Positions 13,401 through 27,074 of a stretch of DNA of 64,000 bases are shown piece after piece. The stretch comes from Anaeromonas frigoriresistens (GTDB taxonomy: Bacteria > Bacillota > Clostridia > Tissierellales > SIT17), in NCBI RefSeq assembly GCF_016820655.1, contig NZ_WSFT01000021.1, positions 1-64,000 of the forward strand, read 5' to 3'. Under the pieces are notes generated by a model. That model ran no database searches, had not been told where the DNA came from, and saw only the letters and a program-made list of their open reading frames with translations. A program made the translations under genes and the position numbers. Numbering within the stretch: position 1 is the stretch's first letter; each line of letters opens with the position of its first letter.

Positions 13401-13430
13401 AAAATATAGTCTAAATAGACCATATTTTTT
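13401..13430 (-). terminator. Terminator of the CDGSH gene
   Basis: ATATAGTCT / AGACCATAT hairpin with one mismatch, followed on the minus strand by a T-run, directly at the end of the CDGSH gene. Confidence 0.75.
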
Positions 13431-13635
13431 ATTTTATTTCTTCTGCTCTTACAACGCTTTCAAATCTCCCTCTATGAGTTCCATCGCAAAAAGGTTTAGT
13501 TTTAGATAACCCACATCTACAAAGATATTTATTATTCTTTGTTTCTAGTTCTTTACCTTTTCCATCCACTAACTCTACATCTCCATCAATTTCATAAGAA
13601 CCATTGTCATTAACTTTAATTTTTACTTTTGACAT
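13429..13635 (-). CDS. CDGSH iron-sulfur domain protein
   Basis: 68 aa. The C-terminal half carries the CDGSH 2Fe-2S ligand pattern: CRCGLSKTKPFCDGTH, giving three Cys and one His. The N-terminal half resembles the short strand-rich part of bacterial CDGSH proteins. Likely a redox or Fe-S transfer protein in the cytoplasm; no partner is evident next to it. AGGAGG precedes the ATG. Confidence 0.88.
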   Translation of the reverse strand: MSKVKIKVNDNGSYEIDGDVELVDGKGKELETKNNKYLCRCGLSKTKPFCDGTHRGRFESVVRAEEIK

Positions 13636-13773
13636 TAAAAAACCTCCTACTATTAATAATCTCTTAATATTTTATTACCCATCTATAGGTAATAAAAATC
13701 AAAGTTATTTTATAAAAAAATAACTAATTATTCCTTTGCTAAAAGAAATGACTAGTCATTTATATATTATTCT

Positions 13774-14316
13774 TTAATTATTTTTCTTATGTCCTTTTTC
13801 CACCATGGCCAGTTCAATAGTATTCAAAATAAAATCTTCTTTTTTACACGTATATGTATTTCTATCATCTCCATACTCTCGAGCAAGTCTTTTCTTCAAC
13901 ACTTCATACTCATGCTTAAAATCTTGATGTTTTATTAGGTAATCTCTGAAGAGAATTAAGTTAGTCCAATTTTTATCCCCATATTCTACAATATTAACAT
14001 GGTGAGTTCTATTATCTTCATTACCTTTAGCAAAAAACAATCGATTACTTTTTCCCATATGGCCTTTGTAATGATATCCTAACTTCTCCAAGGGTTTCAT
14101 ACACTGTAATCCATCTTTAAGTTCTTTTATACCAATTACTATATCTATTATAGGCTTTGAATCCATATGAGGAATGGAAGTACTACCTACATGTTGAATA
14201 TCTATTATAAACTTTCCAATACTTTTTATTAATTCATCCTTTTCCTTTTCAAATAATATACTCCATTCCTTAGAATAAGGACTTAATTTAACTTTCCCTC
14301 TAGGCAACCCTATCAT
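13774..14316 (-). CDS. GrpB/UPF0157 family nucleotidyltransferase-like protein
   Basis: 180 aa. Family marks: QHVGSTSIPHMDSKPIIDIVI (GS...D.D nucleotidyltransferase fold), then HHVNIVEYGDKNW and LILFRDYLIKH. The exact substrate is unknown for the family. First of the short accessory genes that follow in the same orientation; 16 bp separate it from the upstream acetyltransferase. Confidence 0.85.
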   Translation of the reverse strand: MIGLPRGKVKLSPYSKEWSILFEKEKDELIKSIGKFIIDIQHVGSTSIPHMDSKPIIDIVIGIKELKDGLQCMKPLEKLGYHYKGHMGKSNRLFFAKGNEDNRTHHVNIVEYGDKNWTNLILFRDYLIKHQDFKHEYEVLKKRLAREYGDDRNTYTCKKEDFILNTIELAMVEKGHKKNN

Positions 14317-14332
14317 TTTGATACTCCTTTTC

Positions 14333-14854
14333 TTAGATGTATTTCAAGTTTTTATTCTCAAAACTTTTAGTTTTAGCATATAGCGAATAATCAAAATAAT
14401 TGCATTGAAATTCCACTGCATTATGCAGTAATCCTTCTTTTATATAATTATTCTTTATTGCAACCTTTTCACTTATCTTATTTCTCGGATCCATTCTAAT
14501 TTCAATTCTACCTAAATTTAAATCCTCAAAGGCAACTCTCTCTAATTCTTGTACAGCTTGAGTAGCAATACCCTTTCCTGAATAATATTTATCCACAAAA
14601 TATCCTATTTCACCGATATGATCATATTCTTGGTAAATAGTAAGACCACAACCTCCTACAACTTTTCCATTGTAGATAATAGCATAGTTGTATTCTAATT
14701 TATTTTCTCTTTTATACTTTCTTCTTTCTATCCATTTTATTTCCATTTCAATTGAATCAGGAATAGTTGCATAATAATATGTAGTATCAATGTTATTTAA
14801 TATTTCATAAAATCTCTCTGCATCTTCTACCATGGGATATCTAAGTTCTATCAT
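14333..14854 (-). CDS. GNAT-family N-acetyltransferase (RimJ/RimL-like)
   Basis: 173 aa acetyl-CoA-dependent acetyltransferase. Seen: IGYFVDKYYSGKGIATQAV, the beta4-alpha3 acetyl-CoA site, followed by the motif-B asparagine region KISEKVAIKNNYIKEG. Substrate not predictable. The last codons share a 21-bp exact match (14344-14364) with the leader of the methyltransferase gene at 24763-24783. Confidence 0.85.
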   Translation of the reverse strand: MIELRYPMVEDAERFYEILNNIDTTYYYATIPDSIEMEIKWIERRKYKRENKLEYNYAIIYNGKVVGGCGLTIYQEYDHIGEIGYFVDKYYSGKGIATQAVQELERVAFEDLNLGRIEIRMDPRNKISEKVAIKNNYIKEGLLHNAVEFQCNYFDYSLYAKTKSFENKNLKYI

Positions 14855-14904
14855 ATTGTTATCCTCCTATAAGTTTTTTTAAACGTGCATTAAATATACT
14901 AAAT

Positions 14905-15342
14905 TTAGTAATCTAACCTCATAATATGTTCATCACCAAATACTTGTCCATTAAAATAAAACCCAAAACTCTTATATAGTTTTACTGCATAAGTATTTTG
15001 TTTATGTACTCCAAGAAACACCTTATTGTGAGATTTATCTTCCTTTATAATTCTCAAAAGTTCTTCTAAAGCCTTCTTACCATATCCCTTTGATTGATAG
15101 TTCTTATCAGTCATCATACGATAAATCCAATATTCTCCATCATCTTCATCTATACAATACATTAAAAATCCAATTATTACTTCCTCATCATATACTGCAA
15201 GGGGTATACATTCTGGTTGAACTTTAGACTGAGCTATTGAAACAGCATTTGAGGTTACAAAGTTAACTTGTTCTTGGGTAACTTCTAAGGAAATACAATC
15301 CCAAAAATTTTCCTTAGTTATTTCTTTAAATAATATCATCAT
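14905..15342 (-). CDS. GNAT acetyltransferase, spermidine/diamine-type
   Basis: 145 aa. Seen: the CoA site MTDKNYQSKGYGKKALEELL and C-terminal NTYAVKLYKSFGFYFNGQV. The N-terminal half (EITKENFWDCISLEVTQEQ, plus PLAVYDEEVIIGFLMY) resembles BltD/PaiA-like polyamine acetyltransferases. Polyamine specificity is inference. Confidence 0.83.
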   Translation of the reverse strand: MMILFKEITKENFWDCISLEVTQEQVNFVTSNAVSIAQSKVQPECIPLAVYDEEVIIGFLMYCIDEDDGEYWIYRMMTDKNYQSKGYGKKALEELLRIIKEDKSHNKVFLGVHKQNTYAVKLYKSFGFYFNGQVFGDEHIMRLDY

Positions 15343-15402
15343 TAATTACCTTCTTTCTAATTTAATATTTTCAACAAAGAACCTTTTATACTTACTATTC
15401 AT

Positions 15403-16296
15403 TTACATCTTTTCATTATTTTTTATACTCTTAGTAAAATAACATAACTGATTAGTCTGCTTAAAACCTATCCTCTTATATAATTCCACTGCTTTTTTAT
15501 TTTCTGAATTGACACATAAAGTAATGTCATTTACTCCTTCAAAAGTAAATAACCACTTTAATGCCATAGATAATAGTTTATTTCCTATTCCTTTACCCCT
15601 TTGTGTTTCTTCAACAGCAAAGAATTCAATACTCCCTTCTCCAAACCGTGGATTAACTTCTGTATATATATAACCTGCTAAATCATTGTTCTCAGTATTA
15701 ATAAATACCTTTCTATAGTTATTTAATCTTTCTATTATCTCCTTACCAGTATAATAGGTTTTTGGAAAAACTTTATCATGTAAAGATTCCATATCTTGAT
15801 AGTAAATAGGAGAAAGTTCAATATTTGGTATACCCAAGAGTTTAGAAATGTTTCTCCTTTCAAAATTAAAAATTATCTCCTCACTCTTTTTATTGAAATT
15901 TAAATTTTCTACTAAACTTAGACATCTTTTATTTTTCTTATTAATAAACATACTTATTAACTCTATTTCATCAGCTAATCTTTCTATCATCTTACCCCAC
16001 ATATCATAGACAATATTCCATTTCGATTCCTTAATAAATGGCCCCCAAACTTCAACATTATTGCTACTAAAGTCAGTATCGAAACCCAAAACACCAATAA
16101 TTTTCTCATTCTGATAAGCTATTATAAAGCTTTTATAAAAGGGAATATCTGTGATATCTTCTATTAATGAGTGGAAAATTTCGTTATTATCAATTCCACA
16201 AAATCCAATATTACTTTCTTCTACTTTATTAATTTCTGCAATAAAGTCAGATATTTGATTTATATCTTCTTTATTAGCTAATTTAAATTCTATCAA
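15403..16296 (-). CDS. Two-domain GNAT acetyltransferase
   Basis: About 297 aa with two tandem GNAT folds: a degenerate N-terminal one (about 1-145) and a C-terminal one with an intact CoA site ETQRGKGIGNKLLSMAL and NSENKKAVELYKRIGFKQ. The frame opens with GTG at 16305, but AGGAGG touches that codon. TTG at 16296, eight bases downstream of AGGAGG, is the more likely start, two bases after the previous gene. Confidence 0.8.
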   Translation of the reverse strand: MIEFKLANKEDINQISDFIAEINKVEESNIGFCGIDNNEIFHSLIEDITDIPFYKSFIIAYQNEKIIGVLGFDTDFSSNNVEVWGPFIKESKWNIVYDMWGKMIERLADEIELISMFINKKNKRCLSLVENLNFNKKSEEIIFNFERRNISKLLGIPNIELSPIYYQDMESLHDKVFPKTYYTGKEIIERLNNYRKVFINTENNDLAGYIYTEVNPRFGEGSIEFFAVEETQRGKGIGNKLLSMALKWLFTFEGVNDITLCVNSENKKAVELYKRIGFKQTNQLCYFTKSIKNNEKM

Positions 16297-16297
16297 G

Positions 16298-16864
16298 CTA
16301 ATCACCTCCTATATTTAACCTTCTGGCATCTTGTGCTTGTACAACTTTAAATCCTAAGTCTTTATATAGCTTTAATGCTTTCTCATTACTAGCTAGTGCA
16401 TTTAAATTCACACTTGTTGGACTCTGTTCTAAACCTCTATTTATTGTATATTCTAATATTTTCTTACCATAACCTTTTCTTTGGTATTTAATATTAACAA
16501 ATAGTAATTCAATTTCCGCATTCTTTACCATTGAAGCTCCTAGGATTTCATTGTTTTTAAAAAATAGATAATTGTACTCTTTTTCTTCTAAGCTTACTTT
16601 TCTATTGTTTTCAATTGCCTCTTTACTTGCATTTAAATACCAATTATCAGGTATTATCAATTCACTTGTAGCAGCCCCCATTTCAACATAACAATGATTA
16701 CCACTCATCTCTAAATGAATAAATCCTTTAATTCCTCTATCCTCATATACAAGAATTTTTGACGCAGACTTCAAGTTTTCAATCTCTGCTGGCATTGCCT
16801 TATATTCTAATGTATGTAATCTAACGATCTCCTCAATATCAGCTTGATTATAATCTCTAATCAT
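16298..16864 (-). CDS. GNAT-family N-acetyltransferase
   Basis: 188 aa. CoA-binding signature IKYQRKGYGKKILEYTI and a C-terminal NALASNEKALKLYKDLGFKVV in the last 70 residues. The N-terminal part carries YNQADIEEIVRLH. Substrate unknown. Tightly followed by the two-domain GNAT gene, so the two may be one transcript. Confidence 0.83.
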   Translation of the reverse strand: MIRDYNQADIEEIVRLHTLEYKAMPAEIENLKSASKILVYEDRGIKGFIHLEMSGNHCYVEMGAATSELIIPDNWYLNASKEAIENNRKVSLEEKEYNYLFFKNNEILGASMVKNAEIELLFVNIKYQRKGYGKKILEYTINRGLEQSPTSVNLNALASNEKALKLYKDLGFKVVQAQDARRLNIGGD

Positions 16865-16922
16865 AATTACTTTCCCTTTAATTAGCTAAATTCATTACCT
16901 TTTTACAATACGTCTTTCACTC

Positions 16923-17978
16923 TTAATTATGACTCCTTAAAATTTTATTTATTTTCAGTACCCTAAATGTCGATTCCAGTTCATAGGCTAATAATTTTCG
17001 TCTATTTTCTCCTAAATCCATATGTCTACCGTGTACCCAACATCCTGTTTTTTTTTGTAGAACAATTTTAGGAAATTGATATGTACCTTTTTCACTTCTG
17101 TACTCTTTCAGTTTATTATAGTTACTTTTAAACCAATTATCTTCTACGGCATTTTTAAAATGAGCCATTAATTCAAGGCGATGTAATATTTCAGGAGTTA
17201 ATATATCATCCTGATTTATCGGTAACTTGGCATCCCAACCCATTGCAAGATAATTTCTATCACCATTTACTAATATACCATACCCATCATCAAACTGAAG
17301 GTAAGCTGAATCTAAAATATAATCAATGACTGATTTTATCTTATTTAAAGTAGTTTCATCAGCCTCTTTACTCATTTCAGCTAATCCATAAATGTCATAT
17401 ATTAAGGGAATCTTAAAATGACCATTTATATAAAGATCTGGTTTGATAATTCTTCTATTTTTAAATGAAGTGGGTATACTTTTATAATAATTATTATTAT
17501 CATAAATATCATAATTTTTTTGTATGGTAAAGTTATAAAGTATATCTAATCTTTCAACCATGAAATTTTTTATCCAGCTTTCTCTAAATCCTGATTTATA
17601 TAGAAAAGGAAAAATAATAATATTAATAAAGTTTGAAAAGACATGATCTTCTGGAAAAACTTGCTTTTTAAGACGTTCAAGAATCGGTTTCATAATCTTA
17701 TCAAAAGTAACAAATCCTTTCTTTACACCATAATCAAGTAACATAGGCAAAGAATTTTCTAAATGATAATTTGTGGCTCCATGCACTCCATTAAAATCAT
17801 GAAGCTTGTCTTTACTTTCCAAATAATATAATCTCTTTTTGGTTTTACTATATTCCACTAATTGTTTTTTAAGATTTTGAACTTGATTGTCATCAGTGAC
17901 TTCTAGTAATTCTGTCATTGTGCGATATTTAATAACTGGATCACCATGATTTAATAAAAAATCAATTGTATTTTCCAC
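16923..17978 (-). CDS. Hypothetical protein with possible alpha-alpha repeat fold
   Basis: 351 aa, no signal peptide. It starts FLLNHGDPVIKYRTMTELL and includes HDFNGVHGATNYHLENSLPML and KTGCWVHGRHMDLGENRRKLL near the end. It looks helical throughout, as in proteins often mislabelled as prenyltransferase/squalene-cyclase-like. I do not recognise a function. Conserved-looking His and Cys near the C-terminus could be a site. Confidence 0.6.
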   Translation of the reverse strand: MENTIDFLLNHGDPVIKYRTMTELLEVTDDNQVQNLKKQLVEYSKTKKRLYYLESKDKLHDFNGVHGATNYHLENSLPMLLDYGVKKGFVTFDKIMKPILERLKKQVFPEDHVFSNFINIIIFPFLYKSGFRESWIKNFMVERLDILYNFTIQKNYDIYDNNNYYKSIPTSFKNRRIIKPDLYINGHFKIPLIYDIYGLAEMSKEADETTLNKIKSVIDYILDSAYLQFDDGYGILVNGDRNYLAMGWDAKLPINQDDILTPEILHRLELMAHFKNAVEDNWFKSNYNKLKEYRSEKGTYQFPKIVLQKKTGCWVHGRHMDLGENRRKLLAYELESTFRVLKINKILRSHN

Positions 17979-18015
17979 ATTGATTTCCTCCTAAAGAATT
18001 TATAATTTAACTAAT

Positions 18016-18054
18016 GTTAAAAAAAGTAGGTGGTTCGTAAAAGTTCCTGCTTTT
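18016..18054 (-). terminator. Hairpin with T-run after the 85-aa gene
   Basis: On the minus strand AAAAGCAGG pairs with CCTACTTTT across a 15-base loop and continues into a T-run. It lies between two accessory genes. Confidence 0.65.
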
Positions 18055-18057
18055 AAC

Positions 18058-18315
18058 CTAAATCTTTAATTTTGGTAGGGTTTCATCATAGTCATAGATC
18101 CAAAGTTCAAGAATGATTACTTTTTCATCACTTTTCATTAGAATAACATCATTCAAATAATTAATAAATTCTTCTGTTCCCCAACATCCTGGATGCTCAT
18201 AATTATCAAATTCTAATAAATACTCTTTAAGTCTTTTAATAATCTCTTCTGGTCCCTCAATTATCGAAGCTCCCTCATCATATTCATCTGTTATTAGAGC
18301 TTTCACTAGGATCAC
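18058..18315 (-). CDS. Small acidic hypothetical protein
   Basis: 85 aa, very acidic and without membrane segments (VKALITDEYDEGASIIEGPE at the start, LELWIYDYDETLPKL at the end). Not recognised. An AGAGGTGATC-type ribosome site precedes the start. It is one of the single-gene units of the accessory array; further upstream (18508-18931) lies gene debris. Confidence 0.55.
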   Translation of the reverse strand: MILVKALITDEYDEGASIIEGPEEIIKRLKEYLLEFDNYEHPGCWGTEEFINYLNDVILMKSDEKVIILELWIYDYDETLPKLKI

Positions 18316-18507
18316 CTCTTCTCGAAGTTTATTGTACTTATGTAATTTCCAACAATGCTACTCATTCTATATTTTTTCATATAGTATGGTTATCTGGCTA
18401 CTTATTATTTTGTTTATTATGTCTCATGTTTTTCAACATACCAATTCCCCTACGCTAAGTCTTCATGAGTAAATTATTTAATATATAGCCTTGTGTTTAT
18501 TATGATA

Positions 18508-18629
18508 TGTTTAAATATTCTATATATAATTCTCCAATACACAATATAACTCCTGTTTTTTTCTTTTCTTACCAATACTTTTGAATCTATATTCAAAAAA
18601 ATTAAAGGATAGCCTATTGTCTACCCTTT
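18508..18629 (-). repeat. 122-bp diverged repeat, copy 1 (other copy 26953-27074)
   Basis: Aligned to 26953-27074 over the same length with clear but imperfect identity. Both copies hold, reading minus, a hairpin (here AAAGGATAG / CTACCCTTT), a T-run, an A-rich stretch, AGGAGTTATATT and then GGAGAATTATATATAGAATATT. The other copy marks the edge of the array next to the recombinase remnant. This copy may be an older edge or a tandem duplication. The rest of 18316-18507 shows nothing I can name. Confidence 0.75.
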
Positions 18630-18679
18630 CTCATACTTATATATTATCCATTTTAGATATAGTTTCTACCTTAGTTTTA

Positions 18680-18857
18680 ATCATTACTAAAACTTATACC
18701 AATAATATGTATATTGATATTATTTTTCAAGACCAAGTTTTTCTGCAATAGATTTTGATCCATCATTATCTTTACTACAATCCCATTGTAGTTATATATC
18801 CTTCATCCTACATTCATTTTAAAAAATTAGCTACTTTATACCCATATCCTTTTCTTC
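18680..18857 (-). pseudogene. 3' fragment of a GNAT gene, decayed copy of the gene at 21819-22622
   Basis: About 178 bp align closely with the 3' end of the intact acetyltransferase gene (its 21815-21995). In the intact protein this codes for KGYGYKVAKAFIKECR through the C-terminus. Here stops and frameshifts break every frame; the matching frame stops after RKGYGYKVANFLK. The homology ends abruptly at 18857, where an unrelated gene start has been joined. Confidence 0.82.
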
Positions 18858-18931
18858 CCGGATTGCTTTACCCAAAAATTATATGCATCGAACTCCCATA
18901 CTTTTTTGTTTTTCTCAATATAATCTTTCAT
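18857..18931 (-). pseudogene. 5' fragment of a probable methyltransferase gene fused to the GNAT debris
   Basis: From an ATG at 18931 with AAAGGTG upstream, the frame reads MKDYIEKNKKVWEFDAYNFW then VKQSG and runs into the GNAT debris, stopping soon after. The start resembles N-termini of SAM-dependent methyltransferases, but about 25 codons are too few to be sure. It records a deletion or recombination joining two gene units. Confidence 0.5.
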
Positions 18932-18986
18932 TAGCACCTTTGTGCAAAAAAATGTTATAAAACGAGTGTCGCCCGCAAACCTTCTG

Positions 18987-19415
18987 CTACCATTTCCTAT
19001 TTGCTTTTAATTCAATAACCTTTCTATGTATTAGTGGTTGTATTTCTGGATAGGTTAAATTTGTTGGCATTTCATTAAAAAGTCTTACTTCTTCTATTTC
19101 CATATTAGGTAGATCCCCAAACACTTCAATTTCACTATAAAATAGTCTCCCATAGCTAGTCTTTTCTTCTCTTGAAACTGAATAATCACACACCTTATGT
19201 ATTGAGAATTGCTTTGCACCTGTCTCTTCTTCTAATTCTCTTTTACCTGTTTCTTCAATCACCTCACCAATCTCTCTCCGTCCACCAGGTATTTCCCATG
19301 TTTCCCTTTCTTTATGTCTTACAAAAACAAATTTCCCTTTATATATACAGCAAATAACTGCATACTCTAATTTTTCATTATCAATAGTACCTATATCATA
19401 AAAATCCACTACCAT
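18987..19415 (-). CDS. Nudix hydrolase
   Basis: 142 aa with a canonical Nudix box GGRREIGEVIEETG + KRELEEETGA (about residues 44-67), a Mg-dependent pyrophosphohydrolase fold. Substrate (nucleotide, sugar nucleotide or other) unknown. AGGAG precedes the ATG by eight bases. Member of the accessory array. Confidence 0.88.
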   Translation of the reverse strand: MVVDFYDIGTIDNEKLEYAVICCIYKGKFVFVRHKERETWEIPGGRREIGEVIEETGKRELEEETGAKQFSIHKVCDYSVSREEKTSYGRLFYSEIEVFGDLPNMEIEEVRLFNEMPTNLTYPEIQPLIHRKVIELKANRKW

Positions 19416-19599
19416 TTCATTAACTCCTTCTGTTCTTCTTTTTAATAAACATACTCTCTATAGCGAGAATGTGTGGCACTCATCCCCATAGGCTTCTTTT
19501 ATCCTAGAACGTCCTTACACAACCATAGTTTTAGCAGACCGTTTTCCCCTATACATTAATGAACCAACTCAATCTATCATAATGACTACTTTCATAACC

Positions 19600-19847
19600 T
19601 TAGTAAAAACTATTTCTATCTAACTCATCTTTAAAATAATAATCTATTACTGTTAAATCATAATAAGGATCTCCAATGTCTACAAAACCCTAATCAATAA
19701 TCTCACTATTATTCTCTTTATCTAACATAATATATTTTGTTCTAAAATCTCCGTGAAGTAGTGAACCTTGTTCTCTTCCAGTTTTGTTTTCAATATGCCA
19801 CTTAAAAATCTTTTCAGGAAATTCTCCTCTCTTGTAATCAATATATC
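19600..19847 (-). pseudogene. C-terminal fragment of an aminoglycoside-phosphotransferase-family gene
   Basis: Reading on from the GNAT stop at 19848, one frame gives YIDYKRGEFPEKIFKWHIEN, then the kinase catalytic motif LLHGDFRTKYIMLD. An in-frame TAG stands where IIDWGF is expected (IID*GF), then VDIGDPYYDLTVIDYYFKDE follows to a stop. The N-terminal two thirds are absent. So it is a truncated gene with a nonsense mutation, abutting the GNAT gene. It was probably APH-like; the original substrate is unknown. 19416-19599 holds no gene that I can see. Confidence 0.85.
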
Positions 19848-20294
19848 TTATAGAACTTGTTGCATATATAAAGTGTTAGGATAAAACCCTAATTTTCTAT
19901 AAAAGTTAATAGTAGATTCATTTTCCTGAGATACTGTAACCCCAATAGATTTACAATTCTTTTCTTTCATCCACTCAAGATGTTTAACTACAATTTCTTT
20001 TCCAATACCAATACCTCTTTTGGATTCATCTACATGGATTGATTCAAGTTCCCCTTTTTCTTCAACTATAGTTGATATGCAATAACCGATATACTTATCA
20101 TTATATTTAGCAATGGTTATTTTAAGTGTATCCCTGCAAAACTCATCATAGCCTTTAATCCTATCTTCAAAGCAAATAGAGCGATATGCATCACTAAAAT
20201 ATTCTGAGCTATCTTCATGGTACTGCCGATTCTTCTCCCATAATTTTTTTATAATTTTAATATTATCAAAGGGTATATCAAATATCTCAATCAT
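19848..20294 (-). CDS. GNAT-family N-acetyltransferase
   Basis: 148 aa. Seen: IHVDESKRGIGIGKEIVVKH (CoA site) and the C-terminal NESTINFYRKLGFYPNTLYM. AAAGGAG precedes the ATG. Its stop is followed without a gap by debris of a phosphotransferase gene, so its original downstream neighbour was lost. Substrate unknown. Confidence 0.83.
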   Translation of the reverse strand: MIEIFDIPFDNIKIIKKLWEKNRQYHEDSSEYFSDAYRSICFEDRIKGYDEFCRDTLKITIAKYNDKYIGYCISTIVEEKGELESIHVDESKRGIGIGKEIVVKHLEWMKEKNCKSIGVTVSQENESTINFYRKLGFYPNTLYMQQVL

Positions 20295-20452
20295 AATTAA
20301 GTCTCCTTTTTTTAATTTTATTTTCTACCGAAAATTTCTCCATTATGGTGATTTCATTAATATAAGTCATCAATTATGTAGCAATATTTTAAATAATGCA
20401 TCATAAATTAATTCTTCGAATATATATCCTTTACCATCCTTTTTATATCTTT

Positions 20453-20944
20453 CTAATCAATATGTTTTTCGTCAAAATTTTTTTTGATTTTATAGTAAAT
20501 AATTGTAGAAATAAATATACCAATTAAAGATGCAATAATATCATTATTATCCCATGCCCCTAATTTGAGAATCACATGTAGATATTCTATAAGTAAAAAA
20601 ACAGTCATATTAAGTATATTAATCAACCATATAAACACAGGCCTATGAATTACATCAAGCCCTTTAAAAAGTATAGGTGCTATATAAAATATACCTACTA
20701 AGGTGAAGAGAAAACTTGGTACAAGATTTGGTGCCGTTTCTGCGAATAAAGTAATATATTGATTTCCTAATTTATATAAATTTTCTCTAAACAAATACAC
20801 TAACATAAATAAAGCGTATATAAGAATAATTGTTCTACTTAAATAATTATATGCTTTGATGTTAAATAAATTTTTGTTTATATTAATTGGTTTAAAATTA
20901 TTAATTATACTCACCTCTGAAATTTCACTTAAGTTTTTCTGCAA
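20453..20944 (-). CDS. Small integral membrane protein
   Basis: 163 aa with about four or five hydrophobic helices (IILIYALFMLVYLF, LVPSFLFTLVGIFYIAPIL, VFIWLINILNMTVFLLI, DIIASLIGIFISTIIYY). The last part is faintly VanZ-like (Asp in LGAWDNNDIIASLIG), but the VanZ assignment is not secure. No signal peptide. Accessory-array member. Confidence 0.6.
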   Translation of the reverse strand: MQKNLSEISEVSIINNFKPININKNLFNIKAYNYLSRTIILIYALFMLVYLFRENLYKLGNQYITLFAETAPNLVPSFLFTLVGIFYIAPILFKGLDVIHRPVFIWLINILNMTVFLLIEYLHVILKLGAWDNNDIIASLIGIFISTIIYYKIKKNFDEKHID

Positions 20945-21028
20945 TTCTTTACTCTACAATACATTCAATTTTTATGACTTTTAAAATATATATTAAATCT
21001 TATTCTTAATTACGTATAACTTCTAGCC

Positions 21029-21592
21029 CTAAAGATATTTTTGCCTATTAATAAACCTATTTACTTTAAGATAATCTAGTACTATATTAACTCTTTCTTG
21101 GATAGACTGATCTCCCTCTATTCGCAAAATTGGACAGGATAAGCTAGACATCCAATACTCATGTAGAGTCTTGCTCCTAACCTCTAAACCACCTTTATCA
21201 TACAATGATGCCCACTCAAGATAAATCTTTGATTGTTCATATCTACTTCCACCAGGTAAGATTTCATCACCATACCTCTGCAATTCTCTCTCCTGCAACC
21301 TTTTAAGTCTTATTTCTTCGGGGGTATAGACAAAGATAACCAAATCAAAATATGACTTGAATTCATCACCCCATCCACAAACTGCCCCTGATAAAATCCA
21401 TTTTTTATAATTTTTAATATCTTCTTTTAACAAGTTCACTCTATCTTTAGGTGCTCTCTGTTTACTAAACTTTTCAGCCCAAAAATAATCATCACCATCA
21501 AAATTCACATGTGGAAGAATTAAAGATAACTCCTTCCCTAGGGTAGATGCTCCAGAACCCGATGCTCCAAGGATATGTATTCGATCTTTCAT
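21029..21592 (-). CDS. P-loop NTPase, adenylate-kinase-like (FlaR/DNA-topology-type)
   Basis: 187 aa. N-terminal Walker A variant GASGSGASTLGKEL, DGDDYFW in the nucleotide-monophosphate region, LVIFVYTPEEIRLKRLQER as the Walker B/LID side. Such small kinases are often labelled topology modulation or shikimate-kinase-like, with unproven substrates. AAAAGGAG precedes the ATG. Confidence 0.75.
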   Translation of the reverse strand: MKDRIHILGASGSGASTLGKELSLILPHVNFDGDDYFWAEKFSKQRAPKDRVNLLKEDIKNYKKWILSGAVCGWGDEFKSYFDLVIFVYTPEEIRLKRLQERELQRYGDEILPGGSRYEQSKIYLEWASLYDKGGLEVRSKTLHEYWMSSLSCPILRIEGDQSIQERVNIVLDYLKVNRFINRQKYL

Positions 21593-21628
21593 AATAGTCT
21601 CCTTTTATAATTTATGATAATTTTAATA

Positions 21629-21790
21629 TAGCATATTTACGCCTTGCACAAATTAACTTTTTTCTTCATAAAAAACTACTTCATAGTTCCTCCCTCATTT
21701 CTTAGATATTACAAGTTTCATACTTTTGTACTTGCTATATTTGTGTAGCCAATATTCTTTATAGACTGTCTTAAAATACAATGTTAGGTG
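21629..21790 (-). other. Possible attC half-site in a gene-free gap
   Basis: On the minus strand the gap after the 267-aa GNAT gene begins TTACACCTAACATTG, a perfect RYYYAAC core (ACCTAAC, 21789-21783). The far end reads GTTAATT...AGGCGTAA, which only partly matches GTTRRRY and pairs weakly. It could be a worn attC or chance. No gene is visible in this gap. Confidence 0.3.
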
Positions 21791-21818
21791 TAAGTTTTTA
21801 CATCATTTTTAATAATTA

Positions 21819-22622
21819 CTAGAACTTATACCAATAACATGTATAATCATATTCTTTTTCAAGACCAAGTTTTTCTGCCATAGATTTTGATCCATCATTA
21901 TCTTCACTACAATCCCAGTGTAGTTCTATCCCCTTCATTCTACATTCCTTTATAAAAGCCTTAGCTACTTTATAACCATATCCTTTTCTTCGATGTTTTT
22001 CTAATGTTTCTATTCCAACTGTATGAATATTACCTTTCACTAAACCAGAATAACAAATACTCACTATTTCATTTTCTATTAAGTAATAACTGCATATACC
22101 CTTATTCATAAAATTCTCTATATTTCCCCAGAATTTTTGTGTCTCATTTTTCAGAAAATCAATATTAGAAATTTGTAAGTTAAATGTATTTTTATTAAAC
22201 AGCCTTATATTTTCTATACTTTTTTCACTAATTGATATTTCATTTTTTAGCTTATATACTAATTGCTTATCTTTACCTAAGTTTTTGTTTGAAAAAACTT
22301 CCTCAATTATTCTATTCCATTCCTCTGAAACTCCTGAAATTTCGATCCAACTTATACCTATATTATTTAACCTTGAATAGACTACCTCTTCAACGAAAGA
22401 CAAAAGTTCACTTTTAAATTGAGTATTAGTATAGTCTCCTAATAAATAAAAACCTCCCATACCTTTACAAAATATCAATGCTGTTTTTGGATTATTTATG
22501 TTATCAACAAAAATCCAACCTGGGTTATTCTTTAAAATTACTGATGTAGCTTCTGGAAACTTATCATTTTTAATTAAATTATAGACTTCACAATATTTAT
22601 CTTTACTCAATTCTTTAATCAT
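21819..22622 (-). CDS. GNAT-family N-acetyltransferase (two-part)
   Basis: 267 aa: an N-terminal divergent half and a C-terminal GNAT fold with VGIETLEKHRRKGYGYKVAK and LHWDCSEDNDGSKSMAEKLG. Length and layout fit GNAT_acetyltran (FR47-like) proteins. A decayed copy of its 3' third lies at 18680-18857, so this gene was duplicated locally or acquired twice. Confidence 0.83.
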   Translation of the reverse strand: MIKELSKDKYCEVYNLIKNDKFPEATSVILKNNPGWIFVDNINNPKTALIFCKGMGGFYLLGDYTNTQFKSELLSFVEEVVYSRLNNIGISWIEISGVSEEWNRIIEEVFSNKNLGKDKQLVYKLKNEISISEKSIENIRLFNKNTFNLQISNIDFLKNETQKFWGNIENFMNKGICSYYLIENEIVSICYSGLVKGNIHTVGIETLEKHRRKGYGYKVAKAFIKECRMKGIELHWDCSEDNDGSKSMAEKLGLEKEYDYTCYWYKF

Positions 22623-22687
22623 TGCACCTTTATCCTTTCTGCTAATATTGCTTATTGTAAGTGAAGTTTTATATTCATTTTTAAAAA

Positions 22688-23056
22688 TTATTTATGTATA
22701 GTGTTCTGATCATGTATTAAAAGCCATTTTTCTTCTTGTTTACGAAAAATTAAATTCAAATAATAATTCATTTTAATTATGTTTCCTTCTTCATCATAAT
22801 CTTTATAATCAACTTCTATTAATGCATATGCCATTTCTGAACTTTCTTCAATATTTAATATTTTATAGTTTAAATTCCAATCATTATCTTCAAACCAACT
22901 TTTATGTAACTCTAAAAATTCTTCCTTATCTCTTACTAGGTCTCCGTTAGGCATAATCAAAATAATATTTTCTAATTTAACTGTTGAAAGAAAATTGTTT
23001 AAATCTTTGTTTTTCATAGAATTTAGATGCAACATTAAAGTGTTCTTAAAACTCAT
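22688..23056 (-). CDS. NTF2-like (SnoaL/DUF4440-type) protein
   Basis: 122 aa with the cone-like alpha+beta pattern of the NTF2 superfamily: N-terminal helix MLHLNSMKNKDLNNFLSTV, then strands ALIEVDYKDYDEEGNIIKM and EEKWLLIHDQNT. These may be enzymes or binding modules; no catalytic residues stand out. Four bases after the 79-aa gene, so probably co-transcribed. Confidence 0.75.
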   Translation of the reverse strand: MSFKNTLMLHLNSMKNKDLNNFLSTVKLENIILIMPNGDLVRDKEEFLELHKSWFEDNDWNLNYKILNIEESSEMAYALIEVDYKDYDEEGNIIKMNYYLNLIFRKQEEKWLLIHDQNTIHK

Positions 23057-23060
23057 ATCC

Positions 23061-23300
23061 TTACCTCCCTTTGTTTATCTTTTCATTTCCACGCTTGAAA
23101 TTGCCAGTAACTTTAGCCATTATTAATTGTGATTCTATTGTACCTGCTGTAGATATTTTAGATAAAAATTTCTTGCTTTCTTTCCCCTTTAATATCTTAA
23201 CTTGTTTTCCTTCCCAAAAAATAAATATCTTATCATCCTTTGATACTTTATACGAAAAAATTTCTTCTTCAAGTTTATTTCGTTTATCTACATTTTTCAA
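23061..23300 (-). CDS. Small conserved hypothetical protein
   Basis: 79 aa, TTG start with GGAGG ten bases before. The core reads KDDKIFIFWEGKQVKILKGK, then a Lys-rich tail with LIMAKVTGNFKRGN. I have a sense that similar short proteins occur in clostridia, but no function is known to me. Soluble and basic. Confidence 0.6.
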   Translation of the reverse strand: MKNVDKRNKLEEEIFSYKVSKDDKIFIFWEGKQVKILKGKESKKFLSKISTAGTIESQLIMAKVTGNFKRGNEKINKGR

Positions 23301-23418
23301 TTTATTCAGTCCTCCTTCAACTCAACTATTGTTATTACATTATACCTAAGAACACAAAGACCCATAAAATAACTATGATATAAATAAATCACTTCATAGC
23401 ATTTAATTCAAATTATTT

Positions 23419-23910
23419 CTAAATTAATTGTAACCACTCTATTATTGAAGGCTTCCCGACCATAAATATTCCTTCTTCAAATAACCTGTAAATTTCTTCC
23501 TTTGAAACTAATTTTGCTTCACTGACTTCTTCTGGTTGGCATATCACGTCTTCTATATCAATATCTTGTTCGAATAACCAAACATCTGCGAAATACGAAC
23601 ACTCTCCTTCATGCACTGTACTCCTTATAATCCTTCCATTACTAGTTAACTCTATCCCTAATTCTTCTTTTACTTCCCGTACTATAGCTCTAAAGCTATC
23701 CTCTCCTGCAATTGCTGATCCACCCGTTATCTCCCATGTATTGGGGAATGCTTTATTCGGTGTTCTTTTAGAGATGAGAATTTGACCCTTTGAATTCTTA
23801 ATGAATGCAAAAACAACTAAATGAAACTCACCAGGATTCATTGGTTTACCTCGTTCAACTATTCTTCTTGTTTTTTTCCTATTCTTATCTAATACATCCC
23901 ATAATTCCAT
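23419..23910 (-). CDS. Nudix hydrolase (Idi/MutT-like)
   Basis: 163 aa. Nudix box: GGSAIAGEDSFRAIVREVKE + ELGIEL. The N-terminal part, WDVLDKNRKKTRRIVERGKP, and FHLVVFAFIKNSKGQILISKR resemble the IPP-isomerase-like Nudix subgroup, though substrate cannot be assigned. In the minus direction its leader begins just after attC-like site 1, so it forms the next single-gene unit. Confidence 0.87.
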   Translation of the reverse strand: MELWDVLDKNRKKTRRIVERGKPMNPGEFHLVVFAFIKNSKGQILISKRTPNKAFPNTWEITGGSAIAGEDSFRAIVREVKEELGIELTSNGRIIRSTVHEGECSYFADVWLFEQDIDIEDVICQPEEVSEAKLVSKEEIYRLFEEGIFMVGKPSIIEWLQLI

Positions 23911-23981
23911 AATAATCCTCTTTTCATTTTAGTTACTGTTCAGAAACTCTCTTGAATTCACAACACTAGTTTTTTAATATC

Positions 23982-24053
23982 GTCTAACGTTCTTGCTATC
24001 GTAGCTATGGTCCACATACTTTTCGTGGACTCTCTGCAAATAGCATGTTAAAT
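23982..24053 (-). other. attC-like recombination site 1
   Basis: On the minus strand the element runs from ATTTAAC (24053-24047, fits RYYYAAC) to GTTAGAC (23988-23982, fits GTTRRRY), 72 nt. Between the ends are paired segments: TGCTAT with ATAGCA, and GTCCAC with GTGGAC around a nine-base loop. Size, end sequences and fold are those of integron attC sites; there is no T-run, so it is not a plain terminator. It sits 32 bp after the methyltransferase stop and before the Nudix gene, where a cassette boundary should be. Confidence 0.72.
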
Positions 24054-24084
24054 GATGGTTAGTTTGGAACTACCTACAGCTTCA

Positions 24085-24729
24085 TTATTGTTTTTTTCCA
24101 TGAATAAAGTAATGCCAACTACTTGTATCATTAAATATATCTTCTATATGCCTTATTCTTATAATATGAAAATCTTTTAAAAGTTCTCTCACATCTTCTA
24201 AGTTTGAATAAAAATGAGGCACATCAATTTCTGGCTCTTCAATTTTTATAATTGTGTTATCATCGATTCTTGGATAGTTCTTCTTACTAAACGAAGGGCT
24301 ATTTTTTGAACATAATGTTACGAAAAATTCTCCACCACTTTTCAACACTCTATTAATCTCACTGATTATCTTTATTATCCCTTTTGTATCTGTATGAGAA
24401 ATAACATGATATGCTAACAAACAATCAAATGAACTTGTTTCATAAGGTAAGCTATTTATATCGCCTAACTTGATATCGATATTTAGATTATCATCTTTAG
24501 CTTTCTTCTTTAGTACATCTAGTCCATCTTGTGATAAGTCAAAACTGTACGTTTCAAAGCCATTTTGAGCAAATAATATCGAATGTCTACCAAGTCCACA
24601 ACCTAAATCTAAGAAATTATTATACTCTTTACTTTTCCACCTATTTACATAATAATAAACATCTTCTGATGGCACATTCCAAAAATTTTCTTTTACTTCT
24701 TCCCAATTCCATTCTTTTGATTTAACCAT
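24085..24729 (-). CDS. Class I SAM-dependent methyltransferase
   Basis: 214 aa from the ATG at 24729, which has GGAGG five bases upstream; a GTG four codons earlier touches the ribosome site and is less likely. Seen: SAM motif I FLDLGCGLGRHSILFAQNG, acidic loop YSFDLSQDGLDVL, LGDINSLPYETSSFDCLLAY and VISHTDTKG. Substrate unknown. The gene is bounded by attC-like sites on both sides, as in an integron cassette. Confidence 0.87.
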   Translation of the reverse strand: MVKSKEWNWEEVKENFWNVPSEDVYYYVNRWKSKEYNNFLDLGCGLGRHSILFAQNGFETYSFDLSQDGLDVLKKKAKDDNLNIDIKLGDINSLPYETSSFDCLLAYHVISHTDTKGIIKIISEINRVLKSGGEFFVTLCSKNSPSFSKKNYPRIDDNTIIKIEEPEIDVPHFYSNLEDVRELLKDFHIIRIRHIEDIFNDTSSWHYFIHGKKQ

Positions 24730-24762
24730 GCTATCCTCCACTCCTTCTTAATATTTTCGTTC

Positions 24763-24783
24763 TCAAGTTTTTATTCTCAAAAC
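24763..24783. repeat. 21-bp exact repeat (other copy 14344-14364)
   Basis: TCAAGTTTTTATTCTCAAAA plus C occurs here in the leader of the methyltransferase unit, and identically at the 3' end of the GNAT gene at 14333-14854. It may be the tail of a lost GNAT-like gene left in the leader. Confidence 0.6.
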
Positions 24784-24791
24784 CAACTGTC

Positions 24792-24859
24792 ATTTAACAT
24801 TTTAGGTATTGACCTTGTACAAAGTATTTTTATTGTATAGGGGCAATGCCTTGTTAAAT
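24792..24859 (-). other. attC-like recombination site 2
   Basis: 68 nt bounded by ATTTAAC and GTTAAAT, both fitting the core consensus. With flanks, a perfect 10-bp inverted repeat is formed (24790-24799 with 24852-24861). Inside, GGTATTG pairs with CAATGCC. As at site 1, the minus strand reads CATCATTTAAC at its start. It follows the stop of the HELGH-protein gene by about 20 bp and precedes the methyltransferase leader. No T-tract follows it. Confidence 0.75.
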
Positions 24860-24881
24860 GATGTGCTTGACTGAAAAATAC

Positions 24882-25520
24882 TTACCTTTCCCAATCTATA
24901 CGATATCTTTCATCTAACCATTCGCAAATATTTGTTCCTAACCAAAGAGCTAATACCGTTATTGCTGTGAATGTCCAACCTTCATCAAAGAGCCAACTTG
25001 CCTTCTGGTTCAATAAATTCAACGTTATATCTAGTGTATATAGAGATACAATAATTGATATAGCTAGTGGAATATAACGTAAAATCTTGATTTCATATTT
25101 CTCTTTCAATGCTTGTCCTAATCCAACCTCATCTTCAAGATTTAATCTTCCTCTTTTTATCACTCCCCACAATGCATTACCACATGGAATTAGTCTCATC
25201 AACGAGTTAGTGTATCCTACTGCACCAACAATAATAACTGTTTTAGTTGATAATTCTACTCTAAGTAAATTACTAAAAATCATAGCAATTAATAGTGTTA
25301 TTGGTACCCCTAGATCCCAAATCATTTTGGGTGAATTGTCATATTCCATACGAAATTCAACATCTGAAGGCTTCTTGCCTAGGTCACCAACTTTATTAAA
25401 CCCGGTACTTACCCTGATTCCTGATAAATAACACGAAATTCCATGACCTAATTCATGAGCAAATGTAGAAATAATAATTGAAACCACTAGCGTGCCTAAC
25501 CATAGAATAGAATTAGTCAC
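24882..25520 (-). CDS. HELGH-motif membrane protein (M50-like)
   Basis: 212 aa from GTG at 25520 (AGGAGG seven bases upstream); an ATG 18 codons earlier has no good ribosome site. About five or six membrane helices. The first carries FAHELGHGISCYLSG, a zinc HExxH motif like site-2 proteases. The second family motif (NxxPxxxLDG) is not evident, only LGVPITLLIAM and a C-terminal DERYR, so proteolysis is uncertain. Its unit lies between attC-like sites. Confidence 0.68.
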   Translation of the reverse strand: MTNSILWLGTLVVSIIISTFAHELGHGISCYLSGIRVSTGFNKVGDLGKKPSDVEFRMEYDNSPKMIWDLGVPITLLIAMIFSNLLRVELSTKTVIIVGAVGYTNSLMRLIPCGNALWGVIKRGRLNLEDEVGLGQALKEKYEIKILRYIPLAISIIVSLYTLDITLNLLNQKASWLFDEGWTFTAITVLALWLGTNICEWLDERYRIDWER

Positions 25521-25594
25521 CTTTTTTCCTCCTAAATTAATAAACTTCGAAATCTCTAAATAAAATCTATACAACTCAATATCACAAGCATTTC

Positions 25595-25676
25595 ATTTAA
25601 CGTTCCGTGTTTGCGACTCCTTCGAACTGGACCTCAAAGCACTACTTCCTTGGCGGTGCTTCGCTCCTAGTTAAAA
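25595..25676 (-). other. Possible attC-like site 3
   Basis: In minus orientation it starts TTTTAAC (one mismatch to RYYYAAC) and ends GTTAAAT (consensus), 82 nt, with an internal AAGCAC / GTGCTT hairpin. The outer arms pair poorly and look more like a direct repeat (AGGAGCGAAGCACCG, AGGAGTCGCAAACACGG). Position is right: between the DinB-like unit and the HELGH unit. Confidence 0.4.
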
Positions 25677-25728
25677 GGTGTGGTTCACACCACCCAAAAG
25701 CCTATCCATAGTGCACCCTTGTACAAAC

Positions 25729-25742
25729 ATATTGTTATCGGA
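25729..25742. repeat. 14-bp inverted repeat, copy 1 (partner 26463-26476)
   Basis: ATATTGTTATCGGA here is the exact reverse complement of TCCGATAACAATAT at 26463-26476. The pair brackets the DinB-like pseudogene. This copy also lies in the loop of a hairpin formed by ACAAACAT / ATGTTTGT (25723-25730, 25742-25749). Confidence 0.8.
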
Positions 25743-25761
25743 TGTTTGTAGTTTACATCTA

Positions 25762-26432
25762 CTATTTAGCCTTATTTTTAGCTCGCATTGATTCGTTTAT
25801 ATGCACAAGATTGTGTCGAGTAACTGGCATCAATAAAATACCTGCATAATTTCTCTTACCCCAATAATTGATTTGCCAGTTAGAACTTTCTACATCTAAT
25901 ACAGCACCTTCATCTAATACTCGTTGTAATCTTTTTTCATCTATTATTGTTCTTAAATCTGAAGGATTAAGATTTTGTATAATTTTTCTCGTTTTCCTAC
26001 CTACAGCAATTCTATATTTTTTTAATTCTTTAATATTTATATCCTTACTAAATTCTAAAATTCTTCTCGTGACATTGCATTTCCAGTATCACATATGTTT
26101 GACCCTATTTTTTCTAGCCAATTATTTGTACTAATAATTTGTTTTTCATTGGCAATTAATATATTCAAGGTTATATCCTCTATTCTAGTTGAATGCCATA
26201 AACCATAAGCAACTGTGCGTCCTTTATTATTTGTTACTGTTCTGAATGTAGCTTCATCAATCTCTTCCCATAACTCATCTTCTAAAGTAGTCTTGTTTAT
26301 TTGTGACATTTCTGATGAATGAACCATTGCATGTTGTTCTAGACATAAATTAATCGCCTCATCGAAATATTTTGATTTCAATATTTCTCTCAATTTTTTC
26401 TGTTTTGAATTCCATACCTGTTTTTTATTCAT
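25762..26432 (-). pseudogene. DinB-superfamily gene with a frameshift
   Basis: The first frame (26432-26055) gives LCLEQHAMVHSSEMSQ and YGLWHSTRIEDITLNILIA, then stops at SREEF. The other frame continues with EFSKDINIKELKKYRIAVGR through YAGILLMPVTRHNLVHINE to a stop at 25762. One extra base in the GAAGAATTTT tract would restore a single frame of about 223 codons. The three His-bearing helices fit a DinB/YfiT-like metal site. Recent inactivation or a sequencing error; the rest of the gene looks well preserved. Confidence 0.78.
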
Positions 26433-26462
26433 TCAATATCTCTCCTTTTAAGTATAAAAATG

Positions 26463-26476
26463 TCCGATAACAATAT
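26463..26476. repeat. 14-bp inverted repeat, copy 2 (partner 25729-25742)
   Basis: TCCGATAACAATAT, partner of the repeat beyond the other end of the DinB-like pseudogene. It lies between the recombinase remnant and the first gene unit of the array, where an attI-type site would be expected. A GAACC/GGTTC hairpin follows at 26484-26497. Confidence 0.75.
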
Positions 26477-26561
26477 CTTCCCGAACCTGTGGTTCGTATT
26501 TTATTACTAAATATAGGTATTCCCGGACTTTGTTTCGATAATATCTACTTATGTCTGATGT

Positions 26562-26773
26562 TTATCTCCCTTTTTTAAAAAGCCTATCTAATGGACTTTC
26601 TATTTTATTTAAATTCGTTTTAGTTACATGTTTATATATCTCTGTTGTTTTTGAACTTTTATGTCCCAGTAATTCTTGAATATATCCTAAACAGTTCCTC
26701 CTTCCAATAAATGTGTTGCGAAAAAATGTATCAATATATGTACAGAAACTACTTTCTTGATTTGGTTTTTTCA
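26562..26773 (-). pseudogene. C-terminal remnant of a tyrosine recombinase (XerC/IntI-like)
   Basis: Across one frameshift the minus strand reads NQIKKVVSVHILIHFFATHL, then LEGGT, then YIQELLGHKSSKTTEIYKHV, and ends with KIESPLDRLFKKGR. That is box II of a tyrosine recombinase with GHKSS and the catalytic tyrosine in EIYKHV. The catalytic arginine of HxLRH is changed to Ile, a base is lost after GGT, and the N-terminal two thirds are missing. The SPLD ending is common to integron and other XerC-like integrases. It lies at the upstream end of the array, in the same direction as the genes. Confidence 0.82.
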
Positions 26774-26916
26774 CAGTCTTTATCAAAATTATATAATTCA
26801 TCAAAATTTATAATTGTAAATTTGAAAATATTACTCCAATCAATATCGTAATTTAATAGCAGTTCCATAAGCTTAGTCTTATTACTGGGATTACTTAGAA
26901 CAATCCAGCATCTCAT
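26749..26916 (-). CDS. 55-codon ORF beside the recombinase remnant
   Basis: An ATG-to-TAG frame reads MRCWIVLSNPSNKTKLMELL, LNYDIDWSNIFKFTIINFDE and on to KTKSRK. Composition looks protein-like, but there is no convincing ribosome site, and it overlaps the recombinase debris at its end. Probably a fragment of a lost gene. Not recognised. Confidence 0.3.
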   Translation of the reverse strand: MRCWIVLSNPSNKTKLMELLLNYDIDWSNIFKFTIINFDELYNFDKDCEKTKSRK

Positions 26917-26952
26917 TATTAGTTCCAATCTTCTTCTTATTACTCTCTAATT

Positions 26953-27074
26953 TGTTTGAATATTCTATATATAATTCTCCAATTACTAATATAACTCCTG
27001 CTATTTTTTCTTTTTTTTTCAATATTTTTAAATCTAGTACAAAAAAATAAAGAATAGCTTCTCAGCTATTCTTT
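26953..27074 (-). repeat. 122-bp diverged repeat, copy 2 (other copy 18508-18629)
   Basis: Holds the terminator of the ANTAR gene and a downstream A-rich leader with AGGAG and a GGAGAATTATATATAGAATA stretch. The stretch could be the worn start of the recombinase gene (MENYI-like after small corrections), which is inference. It marks the border between core genes and the accessory array. Confidence 0.75.
27049..27074 (-). terminator. Terminator of the ANTAR regulator gene
   Basis: Perfect 11-bp stem AAAGAATAGCT / AGCTATTCTTT with a TCTC loop (read on plus), overlapping the stop codon, followed on the minus strand by a T-run. Confidence 0.9.

Follow-up and report, generated by a model that had tools for sequence, protein, structure and literature searches.

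Introduction

Surveys with IntegronFinder 2 have recovered a single complete integron in all Firmicutes, a scarcity that was called intriguing (PMC9024848). Such searches need the IntI-specific domain (PMC9668308), and integron surveys select for this additional domain of IntI (PMC2426708, PMC9668308); a published classification of tyrosine recombinases noted incomplete conservation of the insertion in an integron-like subgroup (PMC8138268). The pairing of integron R ends exceeds 7 nucleotides (nt), and 9–11 nt have been reported (PMC2727003). The present analysis concerns attC-like site 1, a palindrome in a 64-kb stretch of Anaeromonas frigoriresistens (contig NZ_WSFT01000021.1, positions 1 to 64,000; hereafter the window), a Firmicute of the order including Sporosalibacterium. 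Behind a decayed integrase gene and a conserved attI-like site lie three attC-like sites, the last of which is site 1. Site 1 very probably serves a gene cassette of an integron-like platform as its attC-equivalent recombination site. The array appears to work like an integron, with recombination that we infer, but when tested it lacks one of the features that define canonical IntI systems. No earlier description of its integrase family was found in the open-access literature on integrons in Firmicutes, Clostridia and Paenibacillus, a scope that makes priority uncertain.

Site 1 and the Complementarity of Cassette Ends

Read on the minus strand from 24053 to 23982, site 1 has the sequence ATTTAAC-ATGCTATTTGCAGAGAGTCCACGAAAAGTATGTGGACCATAGCTACGATAGCAAGAAC-GTTAGAC and lies between a methyltransferase gene and a NUDIX gene of the same strand (Table 1). 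As the original prediction stated, its cores ATTTAAC and GTTAGAC fit RYYYAAC and GTTRRRY exactly, the arms TGCTAT/ATAGCA and GTCCAC/GTGGAC are present, and there is no T-run. The exact RYYYAAC/GTTRRRY core is found in sites 1 and 2, while the consensus of the family is TAAC/GTTA with the remaining positions variable. Read by eye, site 1 also resembles in sequence a site of another platform of the same genome, on contig 37 (L017, 4975–4910). In the whole window, an architecture scanner returned two sites on the minus strand, none on the plus strand and none in shuffled sequences. A loose core-to-core pattern applied genome-wide gave 16 matches versus 11 in the reversed control, a weak enrichment that is useless alone, and among the matches listed elsewhere none carries a comparable palindrome by eye. 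Site 1 is more than chance, and it is not a palindrome scattered between unrelated operons.

As single-stranded DNA, the integrated site 1 folds better than shuffles on either strand, with a modest gain (z of −2.5 and −3.1). The junction of the excised methyltransferase cassette, made up largely of site 1, folds far better (z of −5.8 for the bottom strand and −4.3 for the top strand), and the excised junction for site 2 reaches −7.1, the junction sequences having been joined in silico for folding only. The site is attC-like, as had been proposed, but its true folding unit would be the junction of the excised cassette rather than the integrated 72 nt.

In 26 cassettes, the 20 nt that open the cassette right behind a site (R′) were set against the 20 nt that close it ahead of the following site (R″). 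Within a cassette, the two ends are complementary at 12.1 of the 16 positions beyond GTTA, as against 6.1 across the integrated site and 5.7 in random pairs; the pairing reaches approximately position 17, with one fixed mismatch at position 11. In the window, the ends of cassettes 1, 2 and 3 are complementary at 10/11, 11/11 and 10/11 scored positions, scores for which a strand control is uninformative because inverted repeats are symmetric; those of cassette 1, for example, are GTTATCGGA and TCCGATAAC. At site 1, R″ comes from the methyltransferase cassette and R′ from the NUDIX cassette. Taking into account that the ends pair within their own cassette rather than with the neighbor, the complementary unit is the excised cassette, as in integrons. 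Both this complementarity and the architecture of the array are seen in the sequence itself, and the attC-like identity assigned to site 1 is supported by the array context, with its attI-like site, integrase remnant and cassette-specific complementary ends. Across the family, the sites measure 64–204 nt, have internal arms and a variable tip and lie on the same strand; their unpaired spacers are asymmetric, with the L′ side longer by 2–4 nt in 73/77 sites.

In the platform, an integrase gene read toward the array is followed at once by the attI-like site, behind which co-oriented cassettes are lined up head-to-tail, each with one short gene and one imperfect palindrome. In the proposed mechanism, cuts at two G^TTA points would release a cassette as a circle, and the circle would unite the R″ and R′ ends, complementary over approximately 17 nt. 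The strand could then fold into a hairpin with R arm, spacer, L arm and variable tip, and a relative of IntI without the additional domain would recombine the folded site with attI. In this scheme we infer that the substrate is single-stranded and folded, which strand takes part and which enzyme acts on the sites.

The Recombinase

In this integrase family, residues R162, K187, R255, H278 and Y287 are invariant or nearly so, and H252 is nearly invariant. The predicted fold (mean predicted local distance difference test score of 78) finds its best matches in XerA and VchIntIA. The family integrase has 20 residues at the position where VchIntIA has 62. Nearly every member is missing approximately 41 residues that belong to the IntI additional domain, located near patch III, and the alignment places the KDR motif and LRH 59–61 residues apart in nearly all members versus 102 in IntI1. 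The surveys require the IntI domain, which may explain how a family that lacks it could be overlooked. Family scores against TIGR02249 lie between 194 and 220 bits, and the score against the XerA model NF040815 is at its cut-off.

It is very unlikely that the array is a canonical integron acquired from Proteobacteria, with ordinary attC sites of an IntI-type integrase. The R″/L″/L′/R′ box logic, the attI, the cassettes, the exact core fit of site 1 and the TIGR02249 matches would all suit this explanation, but every one of those scores falls below the cut-off of 265, and the missing domain with the shortened spacing refutes it for the integrase. Furthermore, the spacers are asymmetric, compared with 5/5 in a class 2 cassette, and IntI1/2 do not fall inside the Bacillota clade of a tree of IntI, the IS91-linked recombinases and the family integrases, which has long branches and support below 80% at 30/76 of them. 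As the family lacks the additional domain, the cognate enzyme of site 1 is not a canonical IntI; a failure of the IntI1 assay suggested with the original prediction would not refute the finding.

Cassette Movement and Remaining Alternatives

The closed genome of a relative (G187) carries two platforms that share an identical 993-bp cassette with one open frame. One copy sits at attI, the other lies mid-array in the second platform, and G^TTA forms both joints. At the level of sequence, this exact transposition is direct evidence that a cassette has moved in the past, in a relative rather than in the window genome. From GTDB contigs, 80 close relatives of the integrase were recovered. On the integrase strand of the DNA downstream of them (346 kb), 114 attC-like sites were counted (3.29 per 10 kb), compared with nine (0.26 per 10 kb) on the opposite strand of the same DNA. 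Control DNA of 738 kb, scanned on its two strands, gave five (0.034 per 10 kb per strand). One scanner version required AC before GTTA and undercounts, as the G187 arrays use ACC. Such sites are seen downstream of some, not all, of the relatives. The strand ratios of array genes are 15:0, 16:0, 8:1 and 7:0, and the contig ends within 300 bp on the 3′ side of the integrase in 26/80 loci versus 2/80 on the 5′ side, as would follow from repeated cassettes disrupting assembly.

Units moved by a transposase, with ends resembling terminal inverted repeats and no folded-site recombination, are very improbable, even though an inverted repeat of approximately 17–25 nt does flank each gene. These ends vary between cassettes and match only inside one cassette; the units stand head-to-tail in a single orientation, with one shared palindrome per joint and a tyrosine recombinase adjoining, and the joints at attI are exact G^TTA joints. 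No IS91-type transposase lies nearby in 79 of the 80 loci, other transposase types not having been searched; in the remaining locus, a Y2 (IS91/ISCR) transposase is found within 10 kb.

Gene-flanking modules of the Xer/dif type (pdif) would fit a simple Xer-like tyrosine recombinase and the NF040815 score at its cut-off, and can nevertheless be set aside with near certainty. The short dif-like sites, the lack of an internal palindrome and the alternating orientation that mark such modules are absent from the array, whose long sites have an internal L arm, a variable tip, a single orientation and a dedicated integrase with attI. The palindromes lie between co-oriented genes, which would suit terminators or regulatory elements spaced along a series of stress genes. 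This explanation is hardly credible and was ruled out by the cassette-end pairing and the transposed 993-bp cassette: there is no T-run, no family was matched in an Rfam search, each R end finds its partner at the opposite end of its own gene unit and not across the hairpin, an integrase and attI are adjacent, and an entire unit has moved.

The assignment of site 1 to an integron-like platform is weakened by several points. Because the scanner demands a paired, uninterrupted L arm, the pairing of this arm cannot count as independent evidence, whereas the R-arm test can; partly owing to the same demand, the bulge analysis for extrahelical bases gave no dominant single-base type. The integrase family lacks a domain reported as essential in IntI1, and the pseudogene in the window has an internal deletion of approximately 613 nt, a frameshift and no catalytic HxxR arginine. 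Finally, a search for the closing R″ site of the NUDIX cassette gave only weak half-site matches.

The Array and Its Island in the Window

In the direction in which the genes are read, sites 2 and 3 lie upstream of site 1, and beyond them come the attI-like element and then the wreck of the recombinase (Table 1). Site 3 was also found by a profile built without the window sites (E 8e-6).

Table 1. Coordinates of the array and neighboring features in the window, in the reading direction of the genes
Feature	Positions	Strand	Description and evidence
Integrase pseudogene	26568–26934	minus	tblastn/blastn against the intact C53 copy
attI-like site	26465–26545	minus	two inverted TTCG repeats, then GTTAT, directly 3′ of the integrase; alignment with C53, C37 and two other genomes
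Cassette 1	25601–26470	minus	gene 26055–26432, weak match to mycothiol-transferase model
attC-like site 3	25595–25741	minus	147 nt; scanner and profile search
Cassette 2	24798–25600	minus	M50-peptidase-like gene 24882–25574; weak Pfam M50B match
attC-like site 2	24792–24859	minus	68 nt
Cassette 3	23988–24797	minus	methyltransferase gene 24085–24741; Pfam
attC-like site 1	23982–24053	minus	72 nt; scanner, fold and sequence read
Cassette 4	23419–23987	minus	NUDIX gene 23419–23910; shortened
Rest of island	13406–23418	minus	GNAT, NUDIX, GrpB, kinase and VanZ-like genes, all co-oriented

The genome contains two further platforms, on contigs 53 (C53) and 37 (C37), which both terminate within the same cassette. 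C53 has an intact integrase (L018, 10376–11476; 311–366 amino acids) at the contig end, with the complete catalytic R-K-HxxR-H-Y set that the window pseudogene lacks; in C37, an integrase with a single stop codon is followed by at least five clear attC-like sites. The pseudogene keeps codons matching residues 34–86 and 297–364 of the C53 copy, and its C-terminus matches TIGR02249 better than XerC and XerD. As the integrase in the window is dead, the array would be either a fossil or dependent on the intact C53 copy, whose enzyme would have to act in trans for any cassette there to move. Up to G^TTAT, the window, C53, C37 and two other genomes share a conserved element 3′ of the integrase; beyond this point the sequences diverge, as an attI with different first cassettes would do.

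The array belongs to an island of approximately 13.7 kb (roughly 13405–27067) with a gene strand bias of 16:0. This island is absent from three congeners, where the gene for an ANTAR-type regulator next to glnA runs straight into a DUF2179 or phosphoglucomutase gene, and it is species-specific and newly acquired. Between 13.4 and 23.4 kb no recognizable attC sites were found, only weak half-site matches; the GNAT, NUDIX and similar genes at 13.7–23.4 kb are part of the acquired stretch, their sites, if any, having decayed. The lead-in sequence of the integrase pseudogene (26960–27006, minus) recurs at 18515–18560 on the same strand, adjoining a half attC-like stretch (18934–18959), perhaps from a second, lost platform inside the island. 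A broken frame at 18316–18986 (minus), which by eye resembles the C-terminus of the GNAT-like gene at 21819–22622, is likely a duplicated and decayed cassette gene.

Distribution and Significance

Within the order of the window genome, the integrase is accessory and patchy, being present in 11/249 genomes. Its relatives come from Clostridium, Paenibacillus, Cohnella, Alkaliphilus, Acetivibrio, Halanaerobacter, Nitrospirota, Dehalococcoidia, Bacteroidota, Altarchaeum, Methanophagales and others. Accompanied by same-strand cassette arrays downstream, the family is present across Bacillota as well as in Nitrospirota and archaea. Archaeal members are L080, L084, L086, L098, L101, L106 and L107, with five attC-like sites downstream of L084 (Altarchaeum) and one downstream of L106 (Archaeoglobi).

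Two plasmids carry a family relative directly 5′ of a resistance gene: pJAT2044 of Acinetobacter baylyi (L126, 2967–3822; 54.7% identity) before tet(X3), and p2 of Klebsiella michiganensis (L130, 4145–4867; 45.2% identity) before blaVEB-3. In both cases, attI-like inverted repeats and a GTTA joint lie in between, as if the resistance genes were the first cassettes of such platforms; the R″ end of the tet(X3) cassette was searched for and not found.

A broader reading, tentative and rated at slightly less than an even chance, is that the family represents a second, large integron-like branch across Bacillota, Bacteroidota, Nitrospirota and archaea, with an integrase lacking the IntI additional domain, attC sites with a longer R arm and an asymmetric spacer, and cassettes that are already a source of clinical resistance genes, this last part resting on the two plasmid arrangements. 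If the family recombines cassettes, the scarcity of integrons in Firmicutes would be largely a detection effect, integrons would be far commoner among Gram-positives and archaea than thought, and the supposed need of the additional domain for attC recombination would become directly testable. The family would also provide an inexpensive handle for searches, and some resistance genes may have come from it.

Comparison with Known Systems

XerA, XerC and XerD share with the family the simple two-domain layout of a tyrosine recombinase, along with the NF040815 match. In contrast to these proteins, no dif role is indicated for the family, which is accessory and patchy. The IS91-associated tyrosine recombinases have 38–42% identity and the same domain layout without the insertion, but they adjoin an IS91-type transposase; beside them, no cassette array was seen in the one of three loci scanned that had enough DNA. 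Such transposases are adjoined by the distant relatives L043–L045 (Clostridia, 38–42%) and L129 (Vibrio alginolyticus plasmid, 29%), which suggests that IS91 helpers and integron-like recombinases are evolutionarily linked.

Class 1 and class 2 integrons have in common with the family the recombinase fold, a similar C-terminus, the cassette logic, the G^TT cut and an R-end pairing that extends past 7 nt. They differ in that IntI1 and IntI2 carry the insertion and have a divergent orientation, with 29–31% identity to the family integrase. The chromosomal integrons of the Treponema type (PMC3607928) resemble the platform described here in that intI is read toward attI and is followed by one-gene cassettes with palindromic attC sites. 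In contrast to the family, Treponema IntI is a recognized IntI; the family integrase lacks the additional domain, and its sites have asymmetric spacers and a longer R-end pairing, of approximately 17 nt with a fixed mismatch.
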